From: an uncultured Bacteroidia bacterium
GTDB taxonomy: Bacteria; Bacteroidota; Bacteroidia; Bacteroidales; F082
Assembly (NCBI GenBank): GCA_902770835.1
Contig: CACXUM010000035.1
Location: 1-49,481 of the forward strand
Direction of reading: 5' to 3'
DNA length: 49,481 nucleotides
Shown: in pieces, positions 27,489 through 39,136 of the stretch
How the letters are laid out: each line of letters starts with the position of its first letter
Position numbering within the stretch: the first letter of the stretch is position 1
Position numbers and translations under genes: made by a program
The notes under the pieces: generated by a model
Seen by the model: only the letters and a program-made list of their open reading frames with translations
Told to the model about the DNA's origin: nothing
The model's database searches: none

Positions 27489-27861
27489 GCGATTCAGGCA
27501 GACTGTCGCGGGTCGGGAAAGCCGGCGCGAGGAAAGTCGGGACAGCACAGAGCACCATACTTCTTAACAGGAAGGTACACGCGAGTGTAACAGACAGTGC
27601 CACAGAAAAATATACCGCCCGCAAGGGTAAGGGTGAAAACGTGAGGTAAGAGCTCACGCGGCGGGTGGCGACATTCCGCCGGGGCAAACCTTATGGGCTG
27701 CAAGTCCAAGTATAGAGGCAATGAGGCTTTCGGGCCTTGAACGGGCTGCTCGTCCGTAGTCTCAGGGTAGGGCGCTTGAGCCTGCGGGCGACCGCAGGCC
27801 GAGAGAAATGACAGTCACCCCGCAAGGGAAACAGAATCCCGCTTATTCGCTTGGGTCGCTG
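27489..27861 (+). ncRNA. rnpB: RNase P RNA, bacterial type A
   Basis: The catalytic RNA that trims the 5' leader from pre-tRNAs. The outer P1 helix is GCGATTCAGGC (27489-27499) against GCTTGGGTCGC (27849-27859), using wobble pairs. The conserved P4 5' strand region GAGGAAAGTCGGGACAGCAC begins at about 27529, and its 3' partner region ACAGAATCCCGCTTAT lies at about 27831-27846. The GGGTAAGGGTGAAAACGTG and AGGGTAGGGCG regions also match the class. Length is about 373 nt, normal for type A. It has its own promoter and ends at a perfect hairpin terminator. Confidence 0.95.
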
Positions 27862-27863
27862 TT

Positions 27864-30480: not shown

Positions 30481-31077
30481 TTATCTCGTCACATTCCCGA
30501 TAATCACCGAAATATTATTGACAAACATATTCACGGCGATGGCCAAGAGGATGACACCGAAGAATTTGCGGAGAATGAAAATCAGGTTTTCGCCCAAGAG
30601 TTTCTGGATACGGTCCAATTGGCTGATGACGATGTAGTCCAACAAGATGTTGAGCAACAGCGCGATGAGGATGTTGATGACGGCGTAGTCGGCGCGAAGC
30701 GAGAGCAAGGCCGTCAGTGCGCCTGGACCGGCAATCAAGGGGAAGGCGATGGGCACGATGCTGGCACCGCCCTTGCCACCTTCGTTCTTGATGATTTCGC
30801 GACCGAGAATCATTTCGACGGCCAAGATGAAAAGCACGAAAGAACCCGCCACGGCAAACGAAGCCACATCGATGCCGAAGAGCTTGAGCAGCGCGTCGCC
30901 AGCGAAGAAGAACGCCAAGAACAGCCCCAAGGCCGTCAAGCAGGCCTGTCCCGCCTTGATGGTCTTGTTTTGCGCTTTCATACCCACGAAAATGGGAATG
31001 GAGCCGAAGATGTCGATGATGGCGGCCATCACGATGAACGCGCCGAAGATTTCCACGAAGTTGATGCTACCGAACAT
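30481..31077 (-). CDS. MarC family membrane protein
   Basis: A 198-residue inner-membrane protein with six hydrophobic helices. Seen: the MarC/NAAT-type stretches AAIIDIFGSIPIFVG near the start and PIAFPLIAGPGALTALL in the middle. Some relatives transport neutral amino acids; for most the role is unknown. The ATG at 31077 is chosen. A longer frame would start at 31113, inside a dispersed palindromic element, and adds no family-like sequence. It is downstream of the riboswitch-controlled CoA-transferase gene on the same strand, separated by that element. Confidence 0.85.
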   Translation of the reverse strand: MFGSINFVEIFGAFIVMAAIIDIFGSIPIFVGMKAQNKTIKAGQACLTALGLFLAFFFAGDALLKLFGIDVASFAVAGSFVLFILAVEMILGREIIKNEGGKGGASIVPIAFPLIAGPGALTALLSLRADYAVINILIALLLNILLDYIVISQLDRIQKLLGENLIFILRKFFGVILLAIAVNMFVNNISVIIGNVTR

Positions 31078-31098: not shown

Positions 31099-31211
31099 AA
31101 CTACGAATTTCACTAATTGAACGAATGTATGTTATGGAATTATGTAGCCACGGCTGCGATTCCATTACGAATATTCGTGCAAAATTAGTAATATTTGTGT
31201 AATTCGTAGTT
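31099..31211. repeat. Dispersed palindromic element between the CoA-transferase gene and marC (113 bp)
   Basis: AACTACGAATT (31099-31109) and AATTCGTAGTT (31201-31211) are perfect inverted ends. The interior carries GTAGCCACGGCTGCGATTCC, a variant of the small hairpin seen in the que copies. Confidence 0.82.
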
Positions 31212-31218
31212 AAATCAA

Positions 31219-32535
31219 TCAAACAATATTGTTCCAAAGGTAATGGAAATGCGGTCCGAAACGCTTGAACGCGGCCTCGTCCAACTGTTCTTGGAACTGC
31301 GGATGCGCCACCGAAATGATGAGTTTGGCCCTTTCCTGAAGCGAGCGTCCGTAAAGGTTCACCGCGCCATATTCCGTGACGAACCAGTGGATATGGTTGC
31401 GCGTGGTGACGGCACCCGAGCCCAAGTCCAAGGCGGGCACAATCTTGTTGATGCCCTTGCGCGTGGTGGAGGGCATTGCGATGATGGCCTTGCCGCCTTT
31501 CGAGCGCGACGAGCCATAGACGTAGTCAATTTGGCCGCCAACACCTGAATAGATGCGCTCGCCCAACGAGTCGGCGCACACTTGTCCCGACAGGTCAATC
31601 TGGATGCCCGAGTTGATGGAAGTCATCTTGGGTTGATGTGCAATGATGAAGGGATCGTTGGTGTATTCCACGTCCATCAGCAGCACCTCGTGGTTGCCGT
31701 CGATGAAGTCGTAGATTTTCTTCGAGCCCATCACGAAGGTGGATACGATTTTTCCTTTGTTGAGTTTCTTGTTGTCGCCAGTGATGACGCCTTTCTTGAC
31801 AAGCGGCAAAATGCCGTCGGAGAACATCTCGGTATGGATGCCGATGTTTTTGTGGTTGTGGAGGCACGAAAGGATGGCGTTGGGTATGGAGCCGATACCC
31901 ATCTGGAGGCAGGCTCCGTCTTCGATGAGTTCGGCACAATAACGCCCGATGGTTTTTTCCACTTCGTTGGGCTCGGGCATATCGACGGTGAGCAATGGCG
32001 AATCATCCTCAACAAAAACGTTAATTCTGCTGATATGTACCAAAGCATCGCCGAAGGTGCGCGGAACGTGCTTGTTGACCACGGCAATGACAAACTCGGC
32101 ACTCTCCATAGCGGCCAAAGTGGCATCGACCGACGAGCCGAGCGACACATAGCCGAACTTGTCGGGAGGGCAAACTTGAATCATCGCCACGTTGCATTTG
32201 ATGTAACGCTCGCGGTAGAGTTTCGAGGTCTCGCCAAGGAAAACGGGGATATAGTCGGCCAAGCCTTTCTGGACGCTCTCGCGCACATTGGCACCCACGA
32301 AGAAGGCATTGTGCTGGAAAATGCCCTCAAACTCTGGATTGACGTAAGGTGCAGCACCCTCGGTGTGCAGGTGATGGATATAGACGTTCTTCAACTCGCC
32401 CGCACGACCTCTGTCGCACATAGCCCTGACCAAACATTGCGGCACATTCGACACCGAACTGATGTGGACGTGGTCGCCCGACTTGATGACTTTGACGGCT
32501 TCTTCAGCCGTAACTGCTTGATATTGTTTCTTCAT
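31219..32535 (-). CDS. Acetyl-CoA hydrolase / 4-hydroxybutyrate CoA-transferase family enzyme under cobalamin riboswitch
   Basis: A 438-residue cytosolic class I CoA-transferase. Seen: the nucleophile Glu236 in IGIHTEMFSDG, the preceding QMGIGSIPNA, and the GVGGQIDY substrate-binding segment near residue 340. The family includes acetate, succinate, propionate and 4-hydroxybutyrate CoA-transferases, and the exact acyl partner cannot be read from sequence. Its start is MKKQYQAVTAEEA at 32535; the frame stays open through the riboswitch, but that part is not protein-like. A minus-strand cobalamin riboswitch lies directly upstream, so expression should fall when B12 is plentiful. A link to the B12-dependent methylmalonyl-CoA route to propionate is inferred. 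Confidence 0.9.
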   Translation of the reverse strand: MKKQYQAVTAEEAVKVIKSGDHVHISSVSNVPQCLVRAMCDRGRAGELKNVYIHHLHTEGAAPYVNPEFEGIFQHNAFFVGANVRESVQKGLADYIPVFLGETSKLYRERYIKCNVAMIQVCPPDKFGYVSLGSSVDATLAAMESAEFVIAVVNKHVPRTFGDALVHISRINVFVEDDSPLLTVDMPEPNEVEKTIGRYCAELIEDGACLQMGIGSIPNAILSCLHNHKNIGIHTEMFSDGILPLVKKGVITGDNKKLNKGKIVSTFVMGSKKIYDFIDGNHEVLLMDVEYTNDPFIIAHQPKMTSINSGIQIDLSGQVCADSLGERIYSGVGGQIDYVYGSSRSKGGKAIIAMPSTTRKGINKIVPALDLGSGAVTTRNHIHWFVTEYGAVNLYGRSLQERAKLIISVAHPQFQEQLDEAAFKRFGPHFHYLWNNIV

Positions 32536-32565
32536 ATTACTTAATAACTTCAATTCCCGGAAGCC

Positions 32566-32736
32566 TTGTTTCGCGACTTGAGGCAGGTCTTCTGACTGAG
32601 GCCTCGCTTCTGCCGCCTTCCCGAAAGACAAGGCTTTCAGTGGCACAGTGGCAGGCGATTGGCCATCACAGCAGCGGGAACTGTACGGGATTCTCACCCG
32701 ATTCCCTATTGAGTCCGCAAGGGACACCACAAATCG
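32566..32736 (-). promoter_or_regulatory. Cobalamin (B12) riboswitch, minus strand
   Basis: Read on the minus strand, it has the conserved order of the class: GGGAATCGGGTGAGAATCCC, then CAGTTCCCGCTGCTGTGA, then TGCCACTG, then TTCGGGAAGGCGG, and finally GTCAGAAGACCTGCC (the B12 box) at 32583-32597. The start codon of the CoA-transferase gene lies about 50 nt further on. AAGCCTTGT in the aptamer can pair with ACAAGGCTT (plus-strand 32561-32569 and 32628-32636) in the expression platform, a plausible switching or kissing helix. Confidence 0.93.
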
Positions 32737-32740
32737 GCGG

Positions 32741-32748
32741 CAAAAATA
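32741..32748 (-). promoter_or_regulatory. Promoter of the CoA-transferase transcript
   Basis: The minus strand reads TATTTTTG just before the riboswitch. It lies 78 bp from the divergent promoter box at 32827. Confidence 0.7.
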
Positions 32749-32826
32749 GGGAATATTTCTGTACGCTTGCCTATCACCCCGAAATAATGTTTTGGCTTTG
32801 GCAATTGCCATTTCGGAAAAATGCCT

Positions 32827-32834
32827 TACCTTTG
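32827..32834 (+). promoter_or_regulatory. Promoter of the DUF4465 surface-protein transcript
   Basis: TACCTTTG (TAnnTTTG) with TTG at 32805-32807 and a 19-bp spacer. Confidence 0.7.
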
Positions 32835-32837
32835 TGC

Positions 32838-32985
32838 CCGATTTGGTTAAGGGAATGCCGTGCAAATCGGCAACAGTGCCCGCTGCTGTGAGCCCGTGTA
32901 AGGCCTGTCACGAAAAAGCCACTGTACGGCCCATCCGTATGGGAAGGCGACAGGCTCGGGCGAGTCAGAAGACCTGCCAAACAAG
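32838..32985 (+). promoter_or_regulatory. Cobalamin (B12) riboswitch, plus strand
   Basis: The conserved elements follow in order: AAGGGAATGCC, then CAGTGCCCGCTGCTGTGAG, AAAGCCACTG, ATGGGAAGGCGACAGG and GAGTCAGAAGACCTGCC at about 32962-32978. An expression platform of about 110 nt with several possible hairpins (for example AAGG...CCTT around 32983-33003) precedes the start codon at 33095. Confidence 0.94.
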
Positions 32986-33094
32986 GTAATTCTTTGCAAG
33001 CCTTCGGGAACAAGGGCGACGCTAAGCGTGGCAATTGGCATAGCTGCTTGCGATGGTCTTGCATTATTATTTAATGTTTAATAACCAATAAGTT

Positions 33095-34945
33095 ATGCGG
33101 AAAAATCTTTTCCTTTTCCTTTCGCTTTTTGTGGCTAACTTCGCCTTCGCGCAAGAACCTGCCACTTTTGAAGATGTGCAACTCGGAAGCAACGGCATTT
33201 GGGCGGCTCCCGAGGGCGAGAATGAGATGCCCAGTGGGGGCTGGCTCTTCACCAATTACACCGGCTACGGCTATTGGGGCGGCTTCACGGCCTCCAACCG
33301 CACCGACCTGAACCAAACGGGTCTGAATGCCCAATATACGGCTGTCACTGGCTGCGGTTACGATGGCTCCACCCAATATGCCGTGGCATATACATACGGC
33401 GTGCAGACCGATGTGTATGCCGCTGATGGCCAGTCGCATACGGTGACTGGATGCTACATCACCAATAACCTATGGGCCTATCAGGATGTCTTGCAAGGCA
33501 GTATGGGTCAGACGCCTTTTGGCGGACTTTCGGGCGACGACCCCGATTGGTTCAAACTGACCGCCACGGGCAAGAACGCAAGCGGCCAAACCGTCGGCAC
33601 ACTGGATTTCTATCTTGCCGACTACCGCTTCGAAGACAATAGTCAAGATTATGTCCTCGACACTTGGGAATGGTTCGACCTCAGTCCTTTAGGCCCAGTG
33701 GCGACCATTTCGTTCAGCCTGTCGTCGACGAAGAGCAACTATGGCGGCATGATTACGCCGGCCTATTTCTGCATGGACAACTTCAACGGGGGCGGCGCGG
33801 CTCCCGACTTGCCGCCGTATGTCGTCAATCCCGTTCAGGATGTGGTCTTTGACGATTATCCGCAGACGCTTCAAGTCAACCTTGAAGGTGTGGCCACCGA
33901 CCCCGACGACCCTGATGAAAACATCACTTACAGCATTGTCAGCAACTCGAATCCAAGTGCCTTGACCGCCACGATGAGCGGAAAGATTCTGGTGATGACG
34001 CGCCAAAACGCCAACCAAACCATTGTCGACCTCACTATGCGTGCCAACAGTGACGGACAAACGGTTGACTTTAATGTGCATGTCATTATTAATCAGGTTG
34101 TTGACAATCCGCCTTACATTGTCAATCCTGTGCAAGATGTGGTGTTCGATGATTTTCCGCAAACCCTCCAAGTCAACCTTGATGGCGTGGCCTCCGACCC
34201 CGACGACCCTGATGAAAACATTTTATATATGATTGTGGGAAACTCGAATCCCGATGCCTTGTCGACCTCAATGAGCGGAAAGATTTTGGTGCTGACACGC
34301 CGAAACGAGGATGCAGCAGTGGCTGATCTCACCATGCGTGCCGCGAGTGATGGCCAATATGTCAATTTCAATGTGCATGTCATTATTAATCAAATTGTTG
34401 ACGAGCCGCCTTTCATCCTCAATCCCGTGCAAGATGTGGTTTTCGATGAGTTTCCACAAACCCTCCAAGTCAACCTTGATGGCGTGGTTTCCGACCCCGA
34501 CGATCCCGACGAGGGCATCACTTACGGCATCGTTTCCAATTCAAATGAAACCGCCCTTTCTGTTGAAATGGATGGCAAAATATTGGTGTTGAGCCGTTTG
34601 GTGGAAGAGCAAGCCGAGGCCGACCTCGTTATGCGTGCCACCAGCGACGGTCAGTTTGTGGATTTCGAGATTCATGTCGTGATGAATCAAGTGGTTGGCG
34701 TTGATGAAAATGGGCCAAGTTTTGTGGCCTATCCCAACCCGACATCAGGAACGCTTACATTGACCGTCGCTGATGCGCAACGGTTTGATTACGATTTGCT
34801 TAACATTTCGGGTCAATCCGTAATGCGTGGCAGTGCCGTTGGTTCTGAAATCCAACTCGATTTGGGCGGATGTCCCAAGGGCGTGTATTTCGTTTCCATC
34901 CGTTGGAATGATAACAGATTGATACATAAAGTGATAGTGAAGTGA
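33095..34945 (+). CDS. T9SS-exported DUF4465 protein with three Ig-like repeats, candidate surface cobalamin-binding protein
   Basis: A 616-residue secreted protein. Residues 1-20 are a signal peptide. About 21-230 is a DUF4465 domain: TVTGCYITNNLWAY, DWFKLTATGK, DFYLADYRFED and TPAYFCMDNF are typical. Three near-identical repeats of about 101 residues follow, each starting PPYxxNPVQDVVFDD and containing DPDDPDE (from about 238, 339 and 440). Residues about 542-616 are a T9SS type A sorting domain (YPNPTSGTLTL...GVYFVSIRW). DUF4465 proteins of the BtuH type, as I recall, bind cobalamin at the surface of gut Bacteroides. The riboswitch directly upstream supports a B12 role. Using T9SS rather than a lipid anchor is unusual. 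Confidence 0.88.
   Translation: MRKNLFLFLSLFVANFAFAQEPATFEDVQLGSNGIWAAPEGENEMPSGGWLFTNYTGYGYWGGFTASNRTDLNQTGLNAQYTAVTGCGYDGSTQYAVAYTYGVQTDVYAADGQSHTVTGCYITNNLWAYQDVLQGSMGQTPFGGLSGDDPDWFKLTATGKNASGQTVGTLDFYLADYRFEDNSQDYVLDTWEWFDLSPLGPVATISFSLSSTKSNYGGMITPAYFCMDNFNGGGAAPDLPPYVVNPVQDVVFDDYPQTLQVNLEGVATDPDDPDENITYSIVSNSNPSALTATMSGKILVMTRQNANQTIVDLTMRANSDGQTVDFNVHVIINQVVDNPPYIVNPVQDVVFDDFPQTLQVNLDGVASDPDDPDENILYMIVGNSNPDALSTSMSGKILVLTRRNEDAAVADLTMRAASDGQYVNFNVHVIINQIVDEPPFILNPVQDVVFDEFPQTLQVNLDGVVSDPDDPDEGITYGIVSNSNETALSVEMDGKILVLSRLVEEQAEADLVMRATSDGQFVDFEIHVVMNQVVGVDENGPSFVAYPNPTSGTLTLTVADAQRFDYDLLNISGQSVMRGSAVGSEIQLDLGGCPKGVYFVSIRWNDNRLIHKVIVK
33811..34695. repeat. Three tandem coding repeats of about 303 bp
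   Basis: Units begin at about 33811, 34111 and 34414 inside the DUF4465 gene. They share long near-identical words such as GATGTGGT, CAAGTCAACCTTGA and TGTGCATGTCATTATTAATC. Spacing is a multiple of three. Confidence 0.85.
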
Positions 34946-35007: not shown

Positions 35008-36183
35008 TCAATTATAAGCATGAACCCCTCCCAAAATCAAATTTACGCCAAAATAGGTGATGACCACGCTCAGGATGGCGAGAATGCCGTAAATGTGGAA
35101 AAACAAGGGTTTTTGGAAGGTTTTCCAGAGCTTTTCGTGCAAAGGTGCGGCATAGATGAGCAGGGTGATGAGTGCCCAGACTTCTTTCGGGTCCCACGAC
35201 CAATAGTTGCCCCAAGAAACATTGGCCCATATCGCGCCGATGAAGATGCCGGCAGCCAACAGTGCCACAGCAGGGTAGAGCATTGCCGTGCTGAGGCTTT
35301 TCAACCGCTCCAAACGAGGCTGGTCTTTCGGCTTGACTAAGGCGATAATGCCTACTACCGCAATGCCAATCAGCAAAGCGTAAGCCGTGACGATGGTCGA
35401 GATATGGATGCTGAAGAACGGCGACCGCAGCACAGGCATCAACTGGCGCGTCAGCATCCTGACATGTAATACAATAGCCAGAATGACGAGCATCGAAATC
35501 CACGACCAAGTGACGGCGCGGAAGGTTTTGCGCCGTTCAATGAGAATGGCCGCCAAAGCGATGAAGAGTAGCGCATAGCCCGTGTAGGTCACGGCAATGC
35601 CCCACGGGTCGTGGGCCACGTCGAGGATGGAGTTGCCCTGCTCGTCGAAGTCGCTTTGGTAGAATCGGTAATGCTTGTGTTTCAGTATGTTGTTCATCGA
35701 GATGACGGTTTCTGTAATGTTGTTGCCGTCAGTGACTTTGAGGTGGCTGATATAATCCTTGGGCTTTTTCGAGTCGGGGTAAGTCTCAATCTCGAAACGG
35801 TCCAAGGTGAGGCTGAAAGGCAGGGCGTGTTTCGTTATCTCGCCGCCTTTTTCCTGAATGAAGAAATGGCTGTTGGGGCGGTTGGGTTCGAGTTTCATCC
35901 GTCCGTGCTGTCCCGTGAGCATGGTGAGCAACGCACCGAGTAGGATGAACAGGATGGACAGATGCAAGGCACCGACGGACAACCGTTTCCACATTTTGCA
36001 TTTCATTGCCATATAGACGATGAGCAAGGCCACCAAAGCCCAAAGCCCAACAAACCACCACGCGCTATAGACATGGATTCGGGCGAAGTCGGAGCCGTGC
36101 AGTTTCTCGACGATAGTGCCGGCGGCAAGGACGGCGATGAGCACGATAATGAGAACCGATGTGATGTGACGAATGTATTTCAT
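35008..36183 (-). CDS. ccsA: Fused ResB/CcsA cytochrome c assembly protein (CcsBA), short form
   Basis: A 391-residue inner-membrane protein that carries haem to the periplasm and joins it to CxxCH motifs (system II). The N-terminal part (about 1-190) is a reduced ResB/CcsB-like region with helices around a periplasmic domain. The C-terminal part is CcsA with the haem-handling WGNYWSWDPKEVWAL motif near residue 325 and several conserved His. Fused CcsBA proteins are often much longer, so the ResB half is compact here. It lies downstream of a diheme protein gene on the same strand, its likely client, but a terminator-like hairpin separates them. Confidence 0.88.
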   Translation of the reverse strand: MKYIRHITSVLIIVLIAVLAAGTIVEKLHGSDFARIHVYSAWWFVGLWALVALLIVYMAMKCKMWKRLSVGALHLSILFILLGALLTMLTGQHGRMKLEPNRPNSHFFIQEKGGEITKHALPFSLTLDRFEIETYPDSKKPKDYISHLKVTDGNNITETVISMNNILKHKHYRFYQSDFDEQGNSILDVAHDPWGIAVTYTGYALLFIALAAILIERRKTFRAVTWSWISMLVILAIVLHVRMLTRQLMPVLRSPFFSIHISTIVTAYALLIGIAVVGIIALVKPKDQPRLERLKSLSTAMLYPAVALLAAGIFIGAIWANVSWGNYWSWDPKEVWALITLLIYAAPLHEKLWKTFQKPLFFHIYGILAILSVVITYFGVNLILGGVHAYN

Positions 36184-36290
36184 GGCAATATGATTTCAGA
36201 TTAGGCTGCAAAAGTCCGAAAAAAAACGATTGCCGAATCTCCCCATGTTTGGCGATTTTGGGGTTGGGGATGTCCTTATTTATGAGGATA

Positions 36291-36321
36291 AAAAAATCCC
36301 GCCAGCGAGTTGGCAGGATTT
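36291..36321 (-). terminator. Terminator after the diheme oxidoreductase gene
   Basis: On the minus strand AAATCCTGCCA pairs with TGGCGGGATTT around a 6-nt loop, then TTTT. It separates the diheme gene from the ccsA gene. Confidence 0.85.
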
Positions 36322-36347
36322 CGGTTATCTAAGAAAAAGTCTAACAA

Positions 36348-37943
36348 TCAAATCGCATCAATGAATTTCACAACCGCGTCGCGGTCTTTCTTGGGCAGTT
36401 CGCGGAACTTCTCCACCGTGCGGCGGGCGTCGCTTTGGGCGTTGCCGTGCCACATGATGGCCTCGATGACGGTTTGTGCGCGGCAGTCGTGCAAACGGTC
36501 GCTACGGCCCGTGCAGATGGCACTCAATCCACGTCCCCAAAGCGGCGTGGTGCGGCACCAGCCCGTACGGATGTCGTTCTCCATGTGGAGCTTGTGCTGG
36601 ATGTAGTCGCTGTAAGGCCAAATCTTCTGGTTGGGATAGCGGGGCAGGCGCGGGTCGCCGTCAGCGAAGAAGCCAGCCGGGTCGGTGAACATGTCGTCGC
36701 CGGTCTGCCACGACGGACGATGGCAGTAGGCACAACCCATTTGGTTGAAGAGTTCCTTGCCGCGTTGCACGTCAGGGTCGTCCATGTTGCGGGCGGCGGG
36801 AACGGCCAAGCCACGGTGCCACACCATGAAGTTCACATAGTCCTCGTCCTTCATCTCAGGCAGTTTCATCTCGGCAGGGATTTGGTCGTTCATCATCAGG
36901 TAGTTGTAGATGTCGGTTTCCACATTGCCCGTGAGGTTGTATTGCGGGAAATAGTTGTAGAACTCGGCCTGCACGTCGGGGTCTTTTGAGGCCTTGGTGG
37001 CGTAGGCGGCGGTCATGTAGTGGCCCATTTTGGTGCGGTGCGTCACGTTGGTGATGTTCCAGATGGCGTTGGCGCCGGGAGCGTCCTGCAAGGGGCCGCG
37101 TGTGAGGGCGTAGGTGTATTTCTTGGGGTGGGTGGTGTTGCCGTAATAGCCCGTCGGGGCGAAGTCGGAGCCGGCCCACATCGCTGGGTTGAGTCCGTTG
37201 GGCATGAAGCCGTCGTTGTATTCCTTTTGGTATTGCGCTCTCAGCGAGTCGTCGGGAATGGCATCAATCAAGCCTGTGCCGTAAATGCCGATGGTCGATT
37301 CCAAGCGGCAGACGAAATCGCTGTAGGGGATGGGCTGGCCACCCACTTCAAGCGGTACATAGAAAGCGTCTTCGGGAATGTAAACCTCTGGATAGGTGAG
37401 GCTATAACGTTCACCGTCAGGGAATTGGTTGCCCCATTCATCGGTGTAGCTCAGCCAATTGATTTGGATTTTGGTTTCGTCCACGGGAGCCTTGAAAGGC
37501 GCGACGGCCTTGGTTTGGGGCATTCCAGTGTAACTGCTCAGGTAGGTGTCGTTGCGGTCGGTGAAGACGAGCAGGTAGCCGTTGCCCCAGTCGTCGGCGC
37601 GGTAGCGGTTCATCCTCATTCCGTGGCCGTAGCCGGGATGGCAGGCGATGCAACTGCTGCGGATGTAGAGCGGCCCGAGGCCGTTGAAAGGCTCGTTGTT
37701 TTGCGTGTAGGTGCGCTCAAAGAAGTACTCGCCATATTTGAAGGCGGTGCCCAAACCGGCTTGCTCCACGGCGGGCGTGGGGTCTTCGTAGGCACTTTGC
37801 GAAGTGTTGAACGTGGTGCCTAATTGGCCACCGGCGTAGGTGTCTTCGCTGACTTCAGTCGGGATGGGTTCGGGTTGCTTGCAGGAGGCCAAGGCCATGA
37901 GGCCTGCAAGGGTAATGATGCTTAAATGTTTGTAGTTCATCAT
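36348..37943 (-). CDS. Diheme oxidoreductase-family lipoprotein (DUF1111/thiol oxidoreductase type)
   Basis: A 531-residue lipoprotein: signal ending MALASC, with Cys21 lipidated. Two haem c sites are visible: CIACH (98-102) and CAYCH (about 402-406). PLYIRSSCIACHPGYGHG and the C-terminal DARRTVEKFRELPKKDR are typical of the DUF1111 'di-heme oxidoreductase' family. The name 'thiol oxidoreductase' in databases is historical; the substrate is not established. An adjacent imelysin gene lies upstream on the same strand, and ccsA, needed for haem attachment, follows. Such sets occur in iron-regulated loci of other bacteria, so a periplasmic iron or redox role is inferred. Confidence 0.88.
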   Translation of the reverse strand: MMNYKHLSIITLAGLMALASCKQPEPIPTEVSEDTYAGGQLGTTFNTSQSAYEDPTPAVEQAGLGTAFKYGEYFFERTYTQNNEPFNGLGPLYIRSSCIACHPGYGHGMRMNRYRADDWGNGYLLVFTDRNDTYLSSYTGMPQTKAVAPFKAPVDETKIQINWLSYTDEWGNQFPDGERYSLTYPEVYIPEDAFYVPLEVGGQPIPYSDFVCRLESTIGIYGTGLIDAIPDDSLRAQYQKEYNDGFMPNGLNPAMWAGSDFAPTGYYGNTTHPKKYTYALTRGPLQDAPGANAIWNITNVTHRTKMGHYMTAAYATKASKDPDVQAEFYNYFPQYNLTGNVETDIYNYLMMNDQIPAEMKLPEMKDEDYVNFMVWHRGLAVPAARNMDDPDVQRGKELFNQMGCAYCHRPSWQTGDDMFTDPAGFFADGDPRLPRYPNQKIWPYSDYIQHKLHMENDIRTGWCRTTPLWGRGLSAICTGRSDRLHDCRAQTVIEAIMWHGNAQSDARRTVEKFRELPKKDRDAVVKFIDAI

Positions 37944-37963
37944 GATATTTTGGGATTAATGGA

Positions 37964-39136
37964 TTACTTTCTGTCGATTTTGGCGAACTCGGCCTTCACT
38001 TCGCTCATCACGTCGGAGAGGTCTTGGCAGGCTTCCATGGCCTCGCCGGCGGAGGCATCGCTGTAGTAAAGGACAAATGGGGCCTTCATCGCATTGATTT
38101 TCGTCAAGGCGTTCTCGATGGCGTTCAGGGCCTTGGTGTCGAGGTCGGCGTTGTTGTCCTTGAGGTAGGTGTGCAGCGATAAGGTTTCGTCGCGTTGGCC
38201 TTCCATGCCGCCCATGTAGGCGTTCTTCACGCTGATGATGTTGTCGTAGAAGTCGGTGATGGACTTTTGGCTGTAGGGCGACTCAACGTAGGTCACGTCC
38301 TCGCCCGTGTGGCACTTGCCGATTTTCGAGGTGCCTACCTCATCCGAAATGTCAAGGCAGCCGTCGGCAATGGCTTCGAGGGCGTTGGTGAAGGTGGCAT
38401 AGGTGCTACCCGCCTGACCTGCTTGCAGCATGTTCTCGCCGTAGGTGTTGTTGCCACCGTTCACCGTGATGTTCAACTCCAGTTCTTCCATCAGGTCTTT
38501 GTGGGCTTGCGGGGCGTTGGCGTTCCAGCTCACTTCAAGTTGGAAGCAGCGGTTGCGAAGGTCGCGGCTGACGGCCACGGCGTAGGTCATCATGTCGTCG
38601 GTGATGTCGGCCACGTTGCGGGGCTGGCCTTCACGGAAGAGGATGTACTCGATGCCGTGGAAGCCAAGCAGGGCGTTGCCGAGTTGTTCGCCTGCCACCA
38701 TGCCATTTTCGTCGTTGGCAAGCATGGCAATCATGTTGGGACTGGCCATCAGGTTGTTGAAAGCGTCTTCGTCCAAAGGCCACGAGTCGATGTGCGGGTC
38801 GATGCCGAAGTCGGAGGCGGCGCCAAAGAGGAAGGCCTCGCTCATTTCCCACCATTTGCGGGCTTCGAGGAAGGTAGCGGTGGCGGTGTTCACATTGGCT
38901 TGCGTCATACTGCCTTTCAGGGTTTCGAGGTTCCCGACCAAAGCGGCGGTCTTTTCGGCCAATTGGGCGTAAGTCGGATACACTGTGTGGTTGAGATACT
39001 GTTTCACGATGGCCTCTTTCTGGGCCTTGTTGGTTTCCTCGGTTGTGGGTTGAGGATCTTTGTTGCAGGAACTGAAATTCACTGCCAACAGCAGGGATGC
39101 AGCGACTATGGCTGCGGATTTGAATAATTTTTTCAT
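37964..39136 (-). CDS. Imelysin (peptidase M75-like) lipoprotein
   Basis: A 390-residue lipoprotein with a signal ending NFSSC (Cys24 lipidated). It is an imelysin-family helical protein. Seen: the family's GxHxxE motif as GFHGIE (158-163), and IDSWPLDE near 116. The family includes EfeO-like iron-binding proteins and iron-regulated IrpA-type proteins; peptidase activity is doubtful for most. It lies 20 bp upstream of the diheme gene, so the two are co-transcribed, and downstream of a broken porin gene, with a dispersed palindromic element between. The start codon is close to that element, which may carry or mask the promoter. Confidence 0.9.
   Translation of the reverse strand: MKKLFKSAAIVAASLLLAVNFSSCNKDPQPTTEETNKAQKEAIVKQYLNHTVYPTYAQLAEKTAALVGNLETLKGSMTQANVNTATATFLEARKWWEMSEAFLFGAASDFGIDPHIDSWPLDEDAFNNLMASPNMIAMLANDENGMVAGEQLGNALLGFHGIEYILFREGQPRNVADITDDMMTYAVAVSRDLRNRCFQLEVSWNANAPQAHKDLMEELELNITVNGGNNTYGENMLQAGQAGSTYATFTNALEAIADGCLDISDEVGTSKIGKCHTGEDVTYVESPYSQKSITDFYDNIISVKNAYMGGMEGQRDETLSLHTYLKDNNADLDTKALNAIENALTKINAMKAPFVLYYSDASAGEAMEACQDLSDVMSEVKAEFAKIDRK

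Follow-up and report, generated by a model that had tools for sequence, protein, structure and literature searches.

The window analysed here, a stretch of 49,481 nucleotides from an uncultured Bacteroidia bacterium, carries two cobalamin riboswitches head to head, one in the leader of a CoA-transferase gene and the other in the leader of a gene for a DUF4465 surface protein with a T9SS sorting tail. Related genomes keep the two genes linked and under B12 control in several arrangements, and we consider it probable (roughly 60%) that the locus belongs to a response to B12 scarcity, in which a scavenger and a CoA-transferase are made when cobalamin is scarce. The bacterium appears to belong to a Bacteroidales lineage that has not been cultivated, its close relatives being for the most part ruminant MAGs. 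The features on which the analysis rests are as follows:

30481..31077, minus strand: MarC-family membrane protein, likely the second gene of the unit (PF01914, 8.6e-30, obtained with a longer start)
31180..31187, minus strand: possible −7 box of MarC's own (pattern scan)
31219..32535, minus strand: CoA-transferase of the 4-hydroxybutyrate/butyryl type, 438 aa (Pfam and PDB matches)
32546..32565, minus strand: P13/L13 hairpin of the CoA-transferase leader (sequence and fold)
32565..32746, minus strand: cobalamin riboswitch aptamer of the CoA-transferase leader (RF00174)
32582..32597, minus strand: B12 box stretch AGTCAGAAGACCTGCC, CoA-transferase leader
32741..32748, minus strand: −7 promoter box TATTTTTG (pattern scan)
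32827..32834, plus strand: −7 promoter box TACCTTTG (pattern scan)
32827..32995, plus strand: cobalamin riboswitch aptamer of the DUF4465 leader (RF00174)
32963..32978, plus strand: B12 box stretch AGTCAGAAGACCTGCC, DUF4465 leader
32996..33051, plus strand: antisequester helix, GCAAGC (32996–33001) with GCTTGC (33046–33051), overlapping P13 (constrained fold)
33000..33017, plus strand: P13/L13 hairpin GCCTT-CGGGAACA-AGGGC of the DUF4465 leader
33038..33098, plus strand: sequester helix, GCATAGCT (33038–33045) with AGTTATGC (33091–33098), pairing the ATG at 33095 (constrained fold)
33095..34945, plus strand: DUF4465 surface protein, 616 aa (Pfam, NCBIfam and PDB match)
33266..33784, plus strand: DUF4465 domain, of the B12-binding family (PF14717)
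34730..34945, plus strand: T9SS type A sorting domain (TIGR04183)

Two riboswitches and the genes behind them

Scanning the whole window against Rfam with Infernal (cmscan) placed RF00174 at 32565–32746 on the minus strand (106.0 bits, E 1.2e-25) and at 32827–32995 on the plus strand (91.4 bits, E 1.8e-21). Both matches cover model positions 1–189 and exceed the gathering score of 31.5 bits, confirming the two complete B12 riboswitches of the preliminary description; GACCTGCC is present in both. The −7 boxes, called on TAnnTTTG, which we take to be the Bacteroidota −7 consensus (44 occurrences in the window against 23.8 expected in shuffles), lie 78 bp apart in the pattern scan, matching the earlier estimate of about 78 bp. 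From the B12 box to the ATG there are 46 nt for the CoA-transferase gene and 116 nt for the DUF4465 gene. The earlier gene labels also proved right, with an acetyl-CoA hydrolase/transferase (PF13336, PF02550) on one side and a DUF4465 protein with a T9SS tail (PF14717, PF18962) on the other. Less apt was the wording that the riboswitches "drive" their genes: a riboswitch modulates a gene and does not drive it, and the sign is more likely to be repression by B12. Elsewhere, the window holds an RNase P class A RNA (27490–27862, plus strand, 247.7 bits).

In the window's genome (3.26 Mb in 76 contigs, 85.8% complete), RF00174 matches three times, the window pair included. The third match lies on contig C30, ahead of an uptake-type operon that encodes, in order, a DUF4430–T9SS protein, a second T9SS protein, a DUF5074 protein, an EcoRI-type pair and a periplasmic binding protein. 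Its first gene (L004, 8360–9574) thus specifies a DUF4430 protein with a T9SS tail; DUF4430 is, we presume, reminiscent of the transcobalamin fold. The EcoRI-type endonuclease and methylase (PF02963, 1.9e-150; PF13651, 8.3e-133) are inserted in this operon (L004, 2839–9833) between the DUF5074 protein and the periplasmic binding protein.

The plus-strand gene of the window matches PF14717 with 175.2 bits (2.2e-51) against a curated cut-off of 25, and its C-terminal tail matches the T9SS models PF18962 (6.8e-11) and TIGR04183 (1.5e-12); a signal-like N-terminus and three similar repeats were recognized by eye. The T9SS translocon is represented in the same genome by SprA_N on contig C23, and the protein is a predicted T9SS cargo that would be exported. 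Its best PDB match is 9FCT, BtuJ1 of B. thetaiotaomicron with B12 (E 3.1e-27). The accessible part of a 2026 study describes B12 binding by eight divergent DUF4465 members, down to 16% identity, with a conserved HI loop (PMC13398666), and that of another gives BtuJ1 and BtuJ2 four hydrogen-bonding side chains in common (PMC12751083).

In the window protein, the HI loop reads MITPAYF. We mapped Tyr245 and Tyr146 in the BtuJ1 alignment and placed Asn241 and Thr242 by the same offset: Tyr245 aligns with Y224 and Thr242 with T221, and Asn241 falls on I220 and Tyr146 on W127, such that two of the four hydrogen-bonding side chains are altered. Across eight aligned DUF4465 rows (11 rows, minus one off-frame and three partial ones, plus one new), Y224 of the TPAYF stretch is invariant, as are W127, at the position of the DE-loop residue Tyr146, and a Tyr at 129. 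The window's DUF4465 protein would probably bind B12. A predicted structure of the domain, with a mean pLDDT of 48.5, was set aside.

Like BtuJ1 and BtuJ2 of B. thetaiotaomicron (DUF4465, IPR027828), the protein would be an extracellular DUF4465 protein from a B12 riboswitch-regulated locus, as far as the accessible text on the former goes (PMC12751083, PMC13398666). The same text portrays BtuJ1 and BtuJ2 as lipoproteins encoded beside B12 transport genes, whereas the window protein combines a T9SS tail with repeats and sits beside a CoA-transferase, the uptake-type operon of its genome lying on another contig, unlike the btu operons of Bacteroides. In place of the lipoprotein anchoring of BtuJ1 and BtuJ2 we found a T9SS type A tail, and we therefore speak of a DUF4465 protein and not, by its anchoring, of a BtuJ orthologue. 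Adjoining its gene, the window (35008–39136, minus strand) encodes a ResB/cytochrome c assembly protein, a di-haem peroxidase-like protein and an imelysin; the same protein clusters recur near the locus in at least 11 loci.

By its matches, the minus-strand enzyme is a member of the 4-hydroxybutyrate/butyryl CoA-transferase family. Its domains are those of the acetyl-CoA hydrolase/transferase family (PF13336, 1.1e-57; PF02550, 1.4e-24), and the nearest PDB entries, 2OAS (9.4e-129), 3EH7 (5.8e-121) and 3GK7 (1e-112), are all enzymes named 4-hydroxybutyrate CoA-transferase. E236 aligns with E238 of 3GK7, which we take to be the catalytic glutamate; family and position of this residue are thus the same as in the three solved enzymes, and riboswitch control is what sets the window enzyme apart. 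The NCBIfam equivalog for butyryl-CoA:acetate CoA-transferase, TIGR03948, was not reached (309.4 against a cut-off of 674.8), and the substrate assignment stops at the family level. In 62 of 79 loci, the window included, MarC lies directly 3′ of the CoA-transferase in the same orientation, the gap ranging from an overlap to 389 nt. In one such locus (L038, 7302–9328), an NgoBV-type restriction enzyme and a cytosine methylase stand right behind the CoA-transferase–MarC pair.

Riboswitch control and gene linkage across relatives

A scan of GTDB genome contigs yielded 96 relatives, and the best 80 were retained; most of these are MAGs under the title Bacteroidales or Bacteroidia, ruminant names are frequent, and three genomes appear twice. 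Riboswitches were called by a motif pairing the B12 box with an appropriately spaced GGGAA stretch, which found two matches in one mononucleotide shuffle of 1.19 Mb. By this motif, a riboswitch lies immediately 5′ of the CoA-transferase in 45 of the best 80 loci, or in 46 with L045, whose plus riboswitch was missed by the motif and scores 57.4 bits in Rfam. A single riboswitch heads a DUF4465–CoA-transferase operon in another 16 of the 80, ending 43–45 nt before the DUF4465 start as called in 15 of them; in five it sits 4–6 kb upstream of the CoA-transferase, and in one DUF4465 lies upstream and the contig ends there. The motif found no riboswitch in 13 of the best 80 loci, L045 being the one that Rfam then recovers. 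Eight of the remaining 12 are distant orthologues (69–71% identity) without a cobalamin riboswitch by Rfam. In L041, L047, L055 and L049, Rfam likewise confirmed no upstream riboswitch: in the first three, an FN3-family gene that elsewhere lies between riboswitch and CoA-transferase reaches the contig start, and L049 has 525 nt available upstream. A minus-strand B12 box that the motif picked out in L035 is not confirmed by Rfam. Large FN3/MAM surface proteins, mostly of more than 1270 aa, start beside a cobalamin B12-box motif (L040 10252–15024, L035–L037, L042–L044, L051–L054, L059 and L107).

An order-level search covered 295 genomes, with Rfam scans on 20 of the 30 loci given. A riboswitch is present in all three loci at 85–88% identity, which represent two further family codes, and within about 1.5 kb in none of the 17 at 64–72%; six more loci at 62–64% identity lack the motif. 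In G074 (96%), the riboswitch stands ahead of a 1590-aa frame that precedes the CoA-transferase. G101, of a fourth family code, has it directly 5′ of a CoA-transferase that is itself in two pieces (95 and 92%), this unit with its split frame occupying L175 5660–7100. All examined orthologues of at least 85% identity thus have an upstream riboswitch or lie at a contig edge, and none of those examined at 62–72% has one upstream. In a midpoint-rooted FastTree phylogeny of 105 CoA-transferases, the 74 of at least 80% identity group together (support 0.86) on a long stem. Because the riboswitch tracks the orthologues of at least 85% identity and these 74 sequences form one group, B12 control appears to be a derived character of a single CoA-transferase clade.

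Linkage of the two genes was surveyed in 99 congeneric genomes, the window's own included. The CoA-transferase occurs in 61 of them at 73% identity or more (a count that excludes short fragments in G084, G093 and G097, 45% paralogues and weaker matches), and DUF4465, contig-edge fragments included, in 64. Fifty congeners have both genes, 14 have DUF4465 without the CoA-transferase and 11 the converse, giving a co-occurrence table of 50/11/14/24 with a Fisher p of 9e-6, not corrected for ancestry. The two genes share a contig in 46 of the 50, where 45 pairs lie within 10 kb and one at 10.5 kb. Hence, the proposal that an enzyme and a surface protein of a B12-binding family are coupled to one signal is borne out by a conserved coupling, with 45 of 50 pairs within 10 kb.

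Counting one nearest pair per genome, DUF4465 is upstream of the CoA-transferase on the same strand in 17 of the 46 congeners, downstream on the opposite strand in another 17 and downstream on the same strand in seven, and the divergent layout of the window (upstream, opposite strand) occurs in five of the 99. Rfam confirms both divergent riboswitches in L037, L038, L045 and L060, with about 6 kb between the minus riboswitch and its CoA-transferase in L037. Over the five aligned loci (the window and these four), the spacer is 97% identical, arguing that the divergent layout is recent and local. The head-to-head pair of the preliminary description is therefore rare among relatives, whereas linkage with B12 switches is kept in four arrangements: the persistent trait is gene linkage together with B12 control, not divergent geometry.

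Leaders and the sign of regulation

In the CoA-transferase leader, P13 (GGCUUC-CGGGAAUU-GAAGUU) is separated from the ATG by 10 nt, and formation of the kissing loop would therefore block initiation. By sequence, L5 and L13 are complementary in both leaders (UUCCCG/CGGGAA in the minus and CCCG/CGGG in the plus leader). In the DUF4465 leader, P13, the antisequester and the sequester helix are in competition, the 5′ arm of the sequester lying within the antisequester hairpin. Constrained folds, computed with a nearest-neighbour model without the aptamer, gave −29.3 kcal/mol for the antisequester, −28.7 with P13 forced and −30.6 with the sequester forced; as these states lie within 1.9 kcal/mol, the fold model makes no choice among them. 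The sequester helix forms also when P13 is forced, and a bound aptamer that favours P13 would permit it, from which we propose repression of DUF4465.

Among the 45 direct CoA-transferase leaders, 39 have an L13-type CGGGA 3′ of the B12 box (0.94 expected from mononucleotide shuffles), 36 of the 45 with a matching L5 as well, and 21 are of a short design, with the B12 box ending at −43 to −47 and the loop at −22 to −27. DUF4465 has the same short spacing ahead of it, with the box ending at −43 to −45 and a TTCGGGA loop just short of the ATG, in 16 of 25 rows, namely in 15 of the 16 operon loci and in L062; in the other nine rows, the 330 nt next to the called start contain no motif. A strict loop pattern matched three DUF4465 rows, and the remaining short-spaced ones read TTCGGGAT by eye. 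The short leader design is often common to both genes. In 16 loci, DUF4465 and the CoA-transferase share a single riboswitch, which makes B12 repression the more probable sign for the two genes.

Two medium-length leaders, L043 and L093, were folded and show a terminator-like hairpin whose 5′ arm overlaps P13, an arrangement that could give the opposite sign, activation, in these loci. The leaders of L039, L048, L057 and L067 fold into a hairpin of 12–13 bp followed by a T-rich stretch, L048 alone being found by an automatic terminator search with a strict stem rule; here, a longer terminator-like leader seems to replace the short platform before the CoA-transferase. By eye, the stretch before the ATG in these four resembles the end of a lost P13, so they may be swapped leaders, and we set their hairpins aside as evidence on sign.

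In the mechanism we favour, each gene would answer to a separate cobalamin riboswitch. In the presence of cobalamin, which the aptamer would bind, the L5–L13 kissing loop would hold P13, blocking the start region—directly in the CoA-transferase leader, with P13 ending next to the ATG, and in the DUF4465 leader by way of the sequester helix that covers the ATG. Under cobalamin scarcity, both genes would be expressed: the T9SS-exported DUF4465 protein would capture B12 outside the cell and the CoA-transferase would be made, mostly together with MarC. The enzyme would most likely serve to convert acyl-CoA to acid independently of B12 at times when methylmalonyl-CoA mutase and lysine 5,6-aminomutase are without cofactor. 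The B12-independent isozymes encoded by metE and nrd genes stand under cobalamin riboswitches, and the locus would resemble them in that an enzyme for B12 scarcity is repressed by B12; here, the target is a fermentation-type CoA-transferase and no isozyme.

Metabolic setting and competing explanations

Methylmalonyl-CoA mutase and lysine 5,6-aminomutase require B12. The former is encoded as MutAB on contig C3 of the window's genome, and its family occurs in 91 of the 99 congeners; MutB and a KamE-like protein on C66 are the only proteins found in this genome with a PF02310 B12-binding domain. A congener's cluster, L126, comprises lysine 5,6-aminomutase alpha and beta, a CoA-transferase subunit, crotonase, hbd, acyl-CoA dehydrogenase and ETF, part of which is also carried by C66 (L124). 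Together, L126 (6318–16038) and C66 suggest a B12-dependent route from lysine to butyrate.

Several pathways were considered for the window's enzyme and rejected. 4-Hydroxybutyryl-CoA dehydratase (AbfD, PF03241) had no match in the window's genome (G000, 85.8% complete), which led us to dismiss a 4-hydroxybutyrate pathway there, and thiolase had none either, which spoke against butyrate from acetyl-CoA. The butyryl-route genes (crotonase, hbd, acyl-CoA dehydrogenase and ETF) were dismissed as a B12-independent source, standing as they do beside the B12-dependent lysine 5,6-aminomutase in congener L126. With neither AbfD nor thiolase, we therefore found no B12-independent source of butyryl- or crotonyl-CoA for the enzyme in this genome.

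AbfD does occur in five of the 99 congeners (L117–L121; G007, G058, G056, G069 and G051), and in all five an RF00174 riboswitch lies ahead of abfD, a CoA-transferase, an iron alcohol dehydrogenase and an aldehyde dehydrogenase, an operon for the route from succinate to crotonyl-CoA. Families were assigned on L118, whose four genes were found at 88–100% identity in each AbfD congener. All five also carry the window-type CoA-transferase (G069 as a 346-residue match), the window's enzyme being about 45% identical to that of the abfD operon. At the order level, the HpaB family is present in 10 of 295 genomes, nine of them outside the genus. Two of these nine, both of family f88, have an upstream cobalamin riboswitch, and the CoA-transferase of one is closest to 3EH7; G190 and G191 have no riboswitch upstream, the gene starts at a contig end in G178 and G291, and G179, G282 and G370 have no riboswitch and weak HpaB matches that may not be AbfD. 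For Tannerella, the accessible text of PMC7160235 places a cobalamin riboswitch upstream of the 4-hydroxybutyryl-CoA dehydratase gene and labels that gene adenosylcobalamin biosynthesis. A cobalamin riboswitch before an acid-forming pathway is likewise found in the five AbfD congeners and in two Bacteroidales genomes of another family, whereas the window's genome has no AbfD match. Given these riboswitch–abfD operons and the Tannerella precedent, riboswitch control of B12-independent acid formation is a reasonable, testable model, but one for which the window's genome itself has yielded neither the dehydratase nor a thiolase.

The same observations bear on two other views of the enzyme. It is unlikely, in our estimation, that B12 switches the CoA-transferase on as a succinate:propionate (or similar) CoA-transferase of the methylmalonyl-CoA pathway. 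MutAB is encoded in the genome, the window locus is the genome's only place matched by P0002 (E ≤ 1e-3), the hairpin overlapping P13 in L043 and L093 could let a kissing loop antiterminate, and B12 increases methylmalonyl-CoA mutase in Xylanibacter ruminicola according to the accessible part of PMC11575231. Yet a single riboswitch for both genes in 16 of 80 loci implies one sign, and a scavenger would be expected to be B12-repressed; leader geometry is common to both genes, and the mutase family reaches 91 of 99 congeners but the window-type enzyme only 61. B12 repression would also hold if the enzyme served to free CoA from succinyl-, methylmalonyl- and propionyl-CoA accumulating while the mutase lacks B12, with no fermentation branch. 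This we judge rather improbable: the mutase is indeed present and a complete B12-independent butyrate route was not found in the window's genome, but the closest solved relatives are named 4-hydroxybutyrate CoA-transferases, and succinate fermentation without B12 can dispense with succinyl-CoA formation.

Regarding the surface protein, the exchanges of N241 for I220 and of Y146 for W127, along with its being a T9SS substrate and not a lipoprotein, would suit a protein with a different corrinoid ligand or an altered function. B12 binding throughout the family at identities as low as 16%, in the accessible text of PMC13398666, the intact TPAYF of the HI loop and the gene's own cobalamin riboswitch make this quite improbable. 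We find it hardly credible that the riboswitches are adjacent by chance, the one before the CoA-transferase being a remnant functionally unconnected with the scavenger. Such an accident would fit a divergent layout that is confined to five of 99 congeners and, with its 97% identical spacer, recent; however, the riboswitch is kept in every examined clade member with upstream DNA, despite changing platforms and neighbours, and 45 of the 46 same-contig pairs lie within 10 kb, with the ancestry-uncorrected Fisher p given above. A B12-scarcity response that joins scavenger and CoA-transferase remains our preferred reading. Several findings count against it: the missing AbfD and thiolase matches, the score below the TIGR03948 cut-off, the P13-overlapping hairpins of L043 and L093, the changed residues at Tyr146 and Asn241, the congeners with one gene alone (14 with DUF4465, 11 with the CoA-transferase), the closely spaced folding states of the DUF4465 leader and a riboswitch in just two of the nine HpaB-bearing genomes outside the genus.

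The preliminary description knew of no such pairing, and this stands for the combination but not for its parts: our full-text searches of open-licence papers turned up no description of a riboswitch-controlled CoA-transferase paired with DUF4465, whereas DUF4465 genes in B12 riboswitch-regulated loci are known from Bacteroides (PMC12751083 and PMC13398666, accessible parts) and the riboswitch ahead of the dehydratase gene from Tannerella. Cobalamin riboswitch regulons are thus familiar as a kind; apparently new, at least to us, are the target pair and its evolutionary persistence.

Propionate and butyrate from the rumen nourish the host animal, and the supply of cobalt governs B12 in the rumen. 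More tentatively, the locus may belong to a fermentation switch in Bacteroidales, in which B12 would direct flux to propionate through methylmalonyl-CoA mutase and its absence would call up a riboswitch-induced, B12-independent acid route along with surface capture. As part of this same tentative proposal, the route would consist of the CoA-transferase alone in most of the lineage and of the whole succinate–4-hydroxybutyrate–crotonyl-CoA operon in some members, as well as in another Bacteroidales family. If this were true, B12 supply would set which fatty acid the host receives. A CoA-transferase tied to B12 scarcity would connect B12 directly, and in a testable way, with fermentation products at the molecular level, and a fermentation-type enzyme would join the known targets of cobalamin riboswitches. 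The locus suggests, too, that uncultivated bacteria have a variant of the newly defined DUF4465 B12-capture family that is exported by the T9SS.
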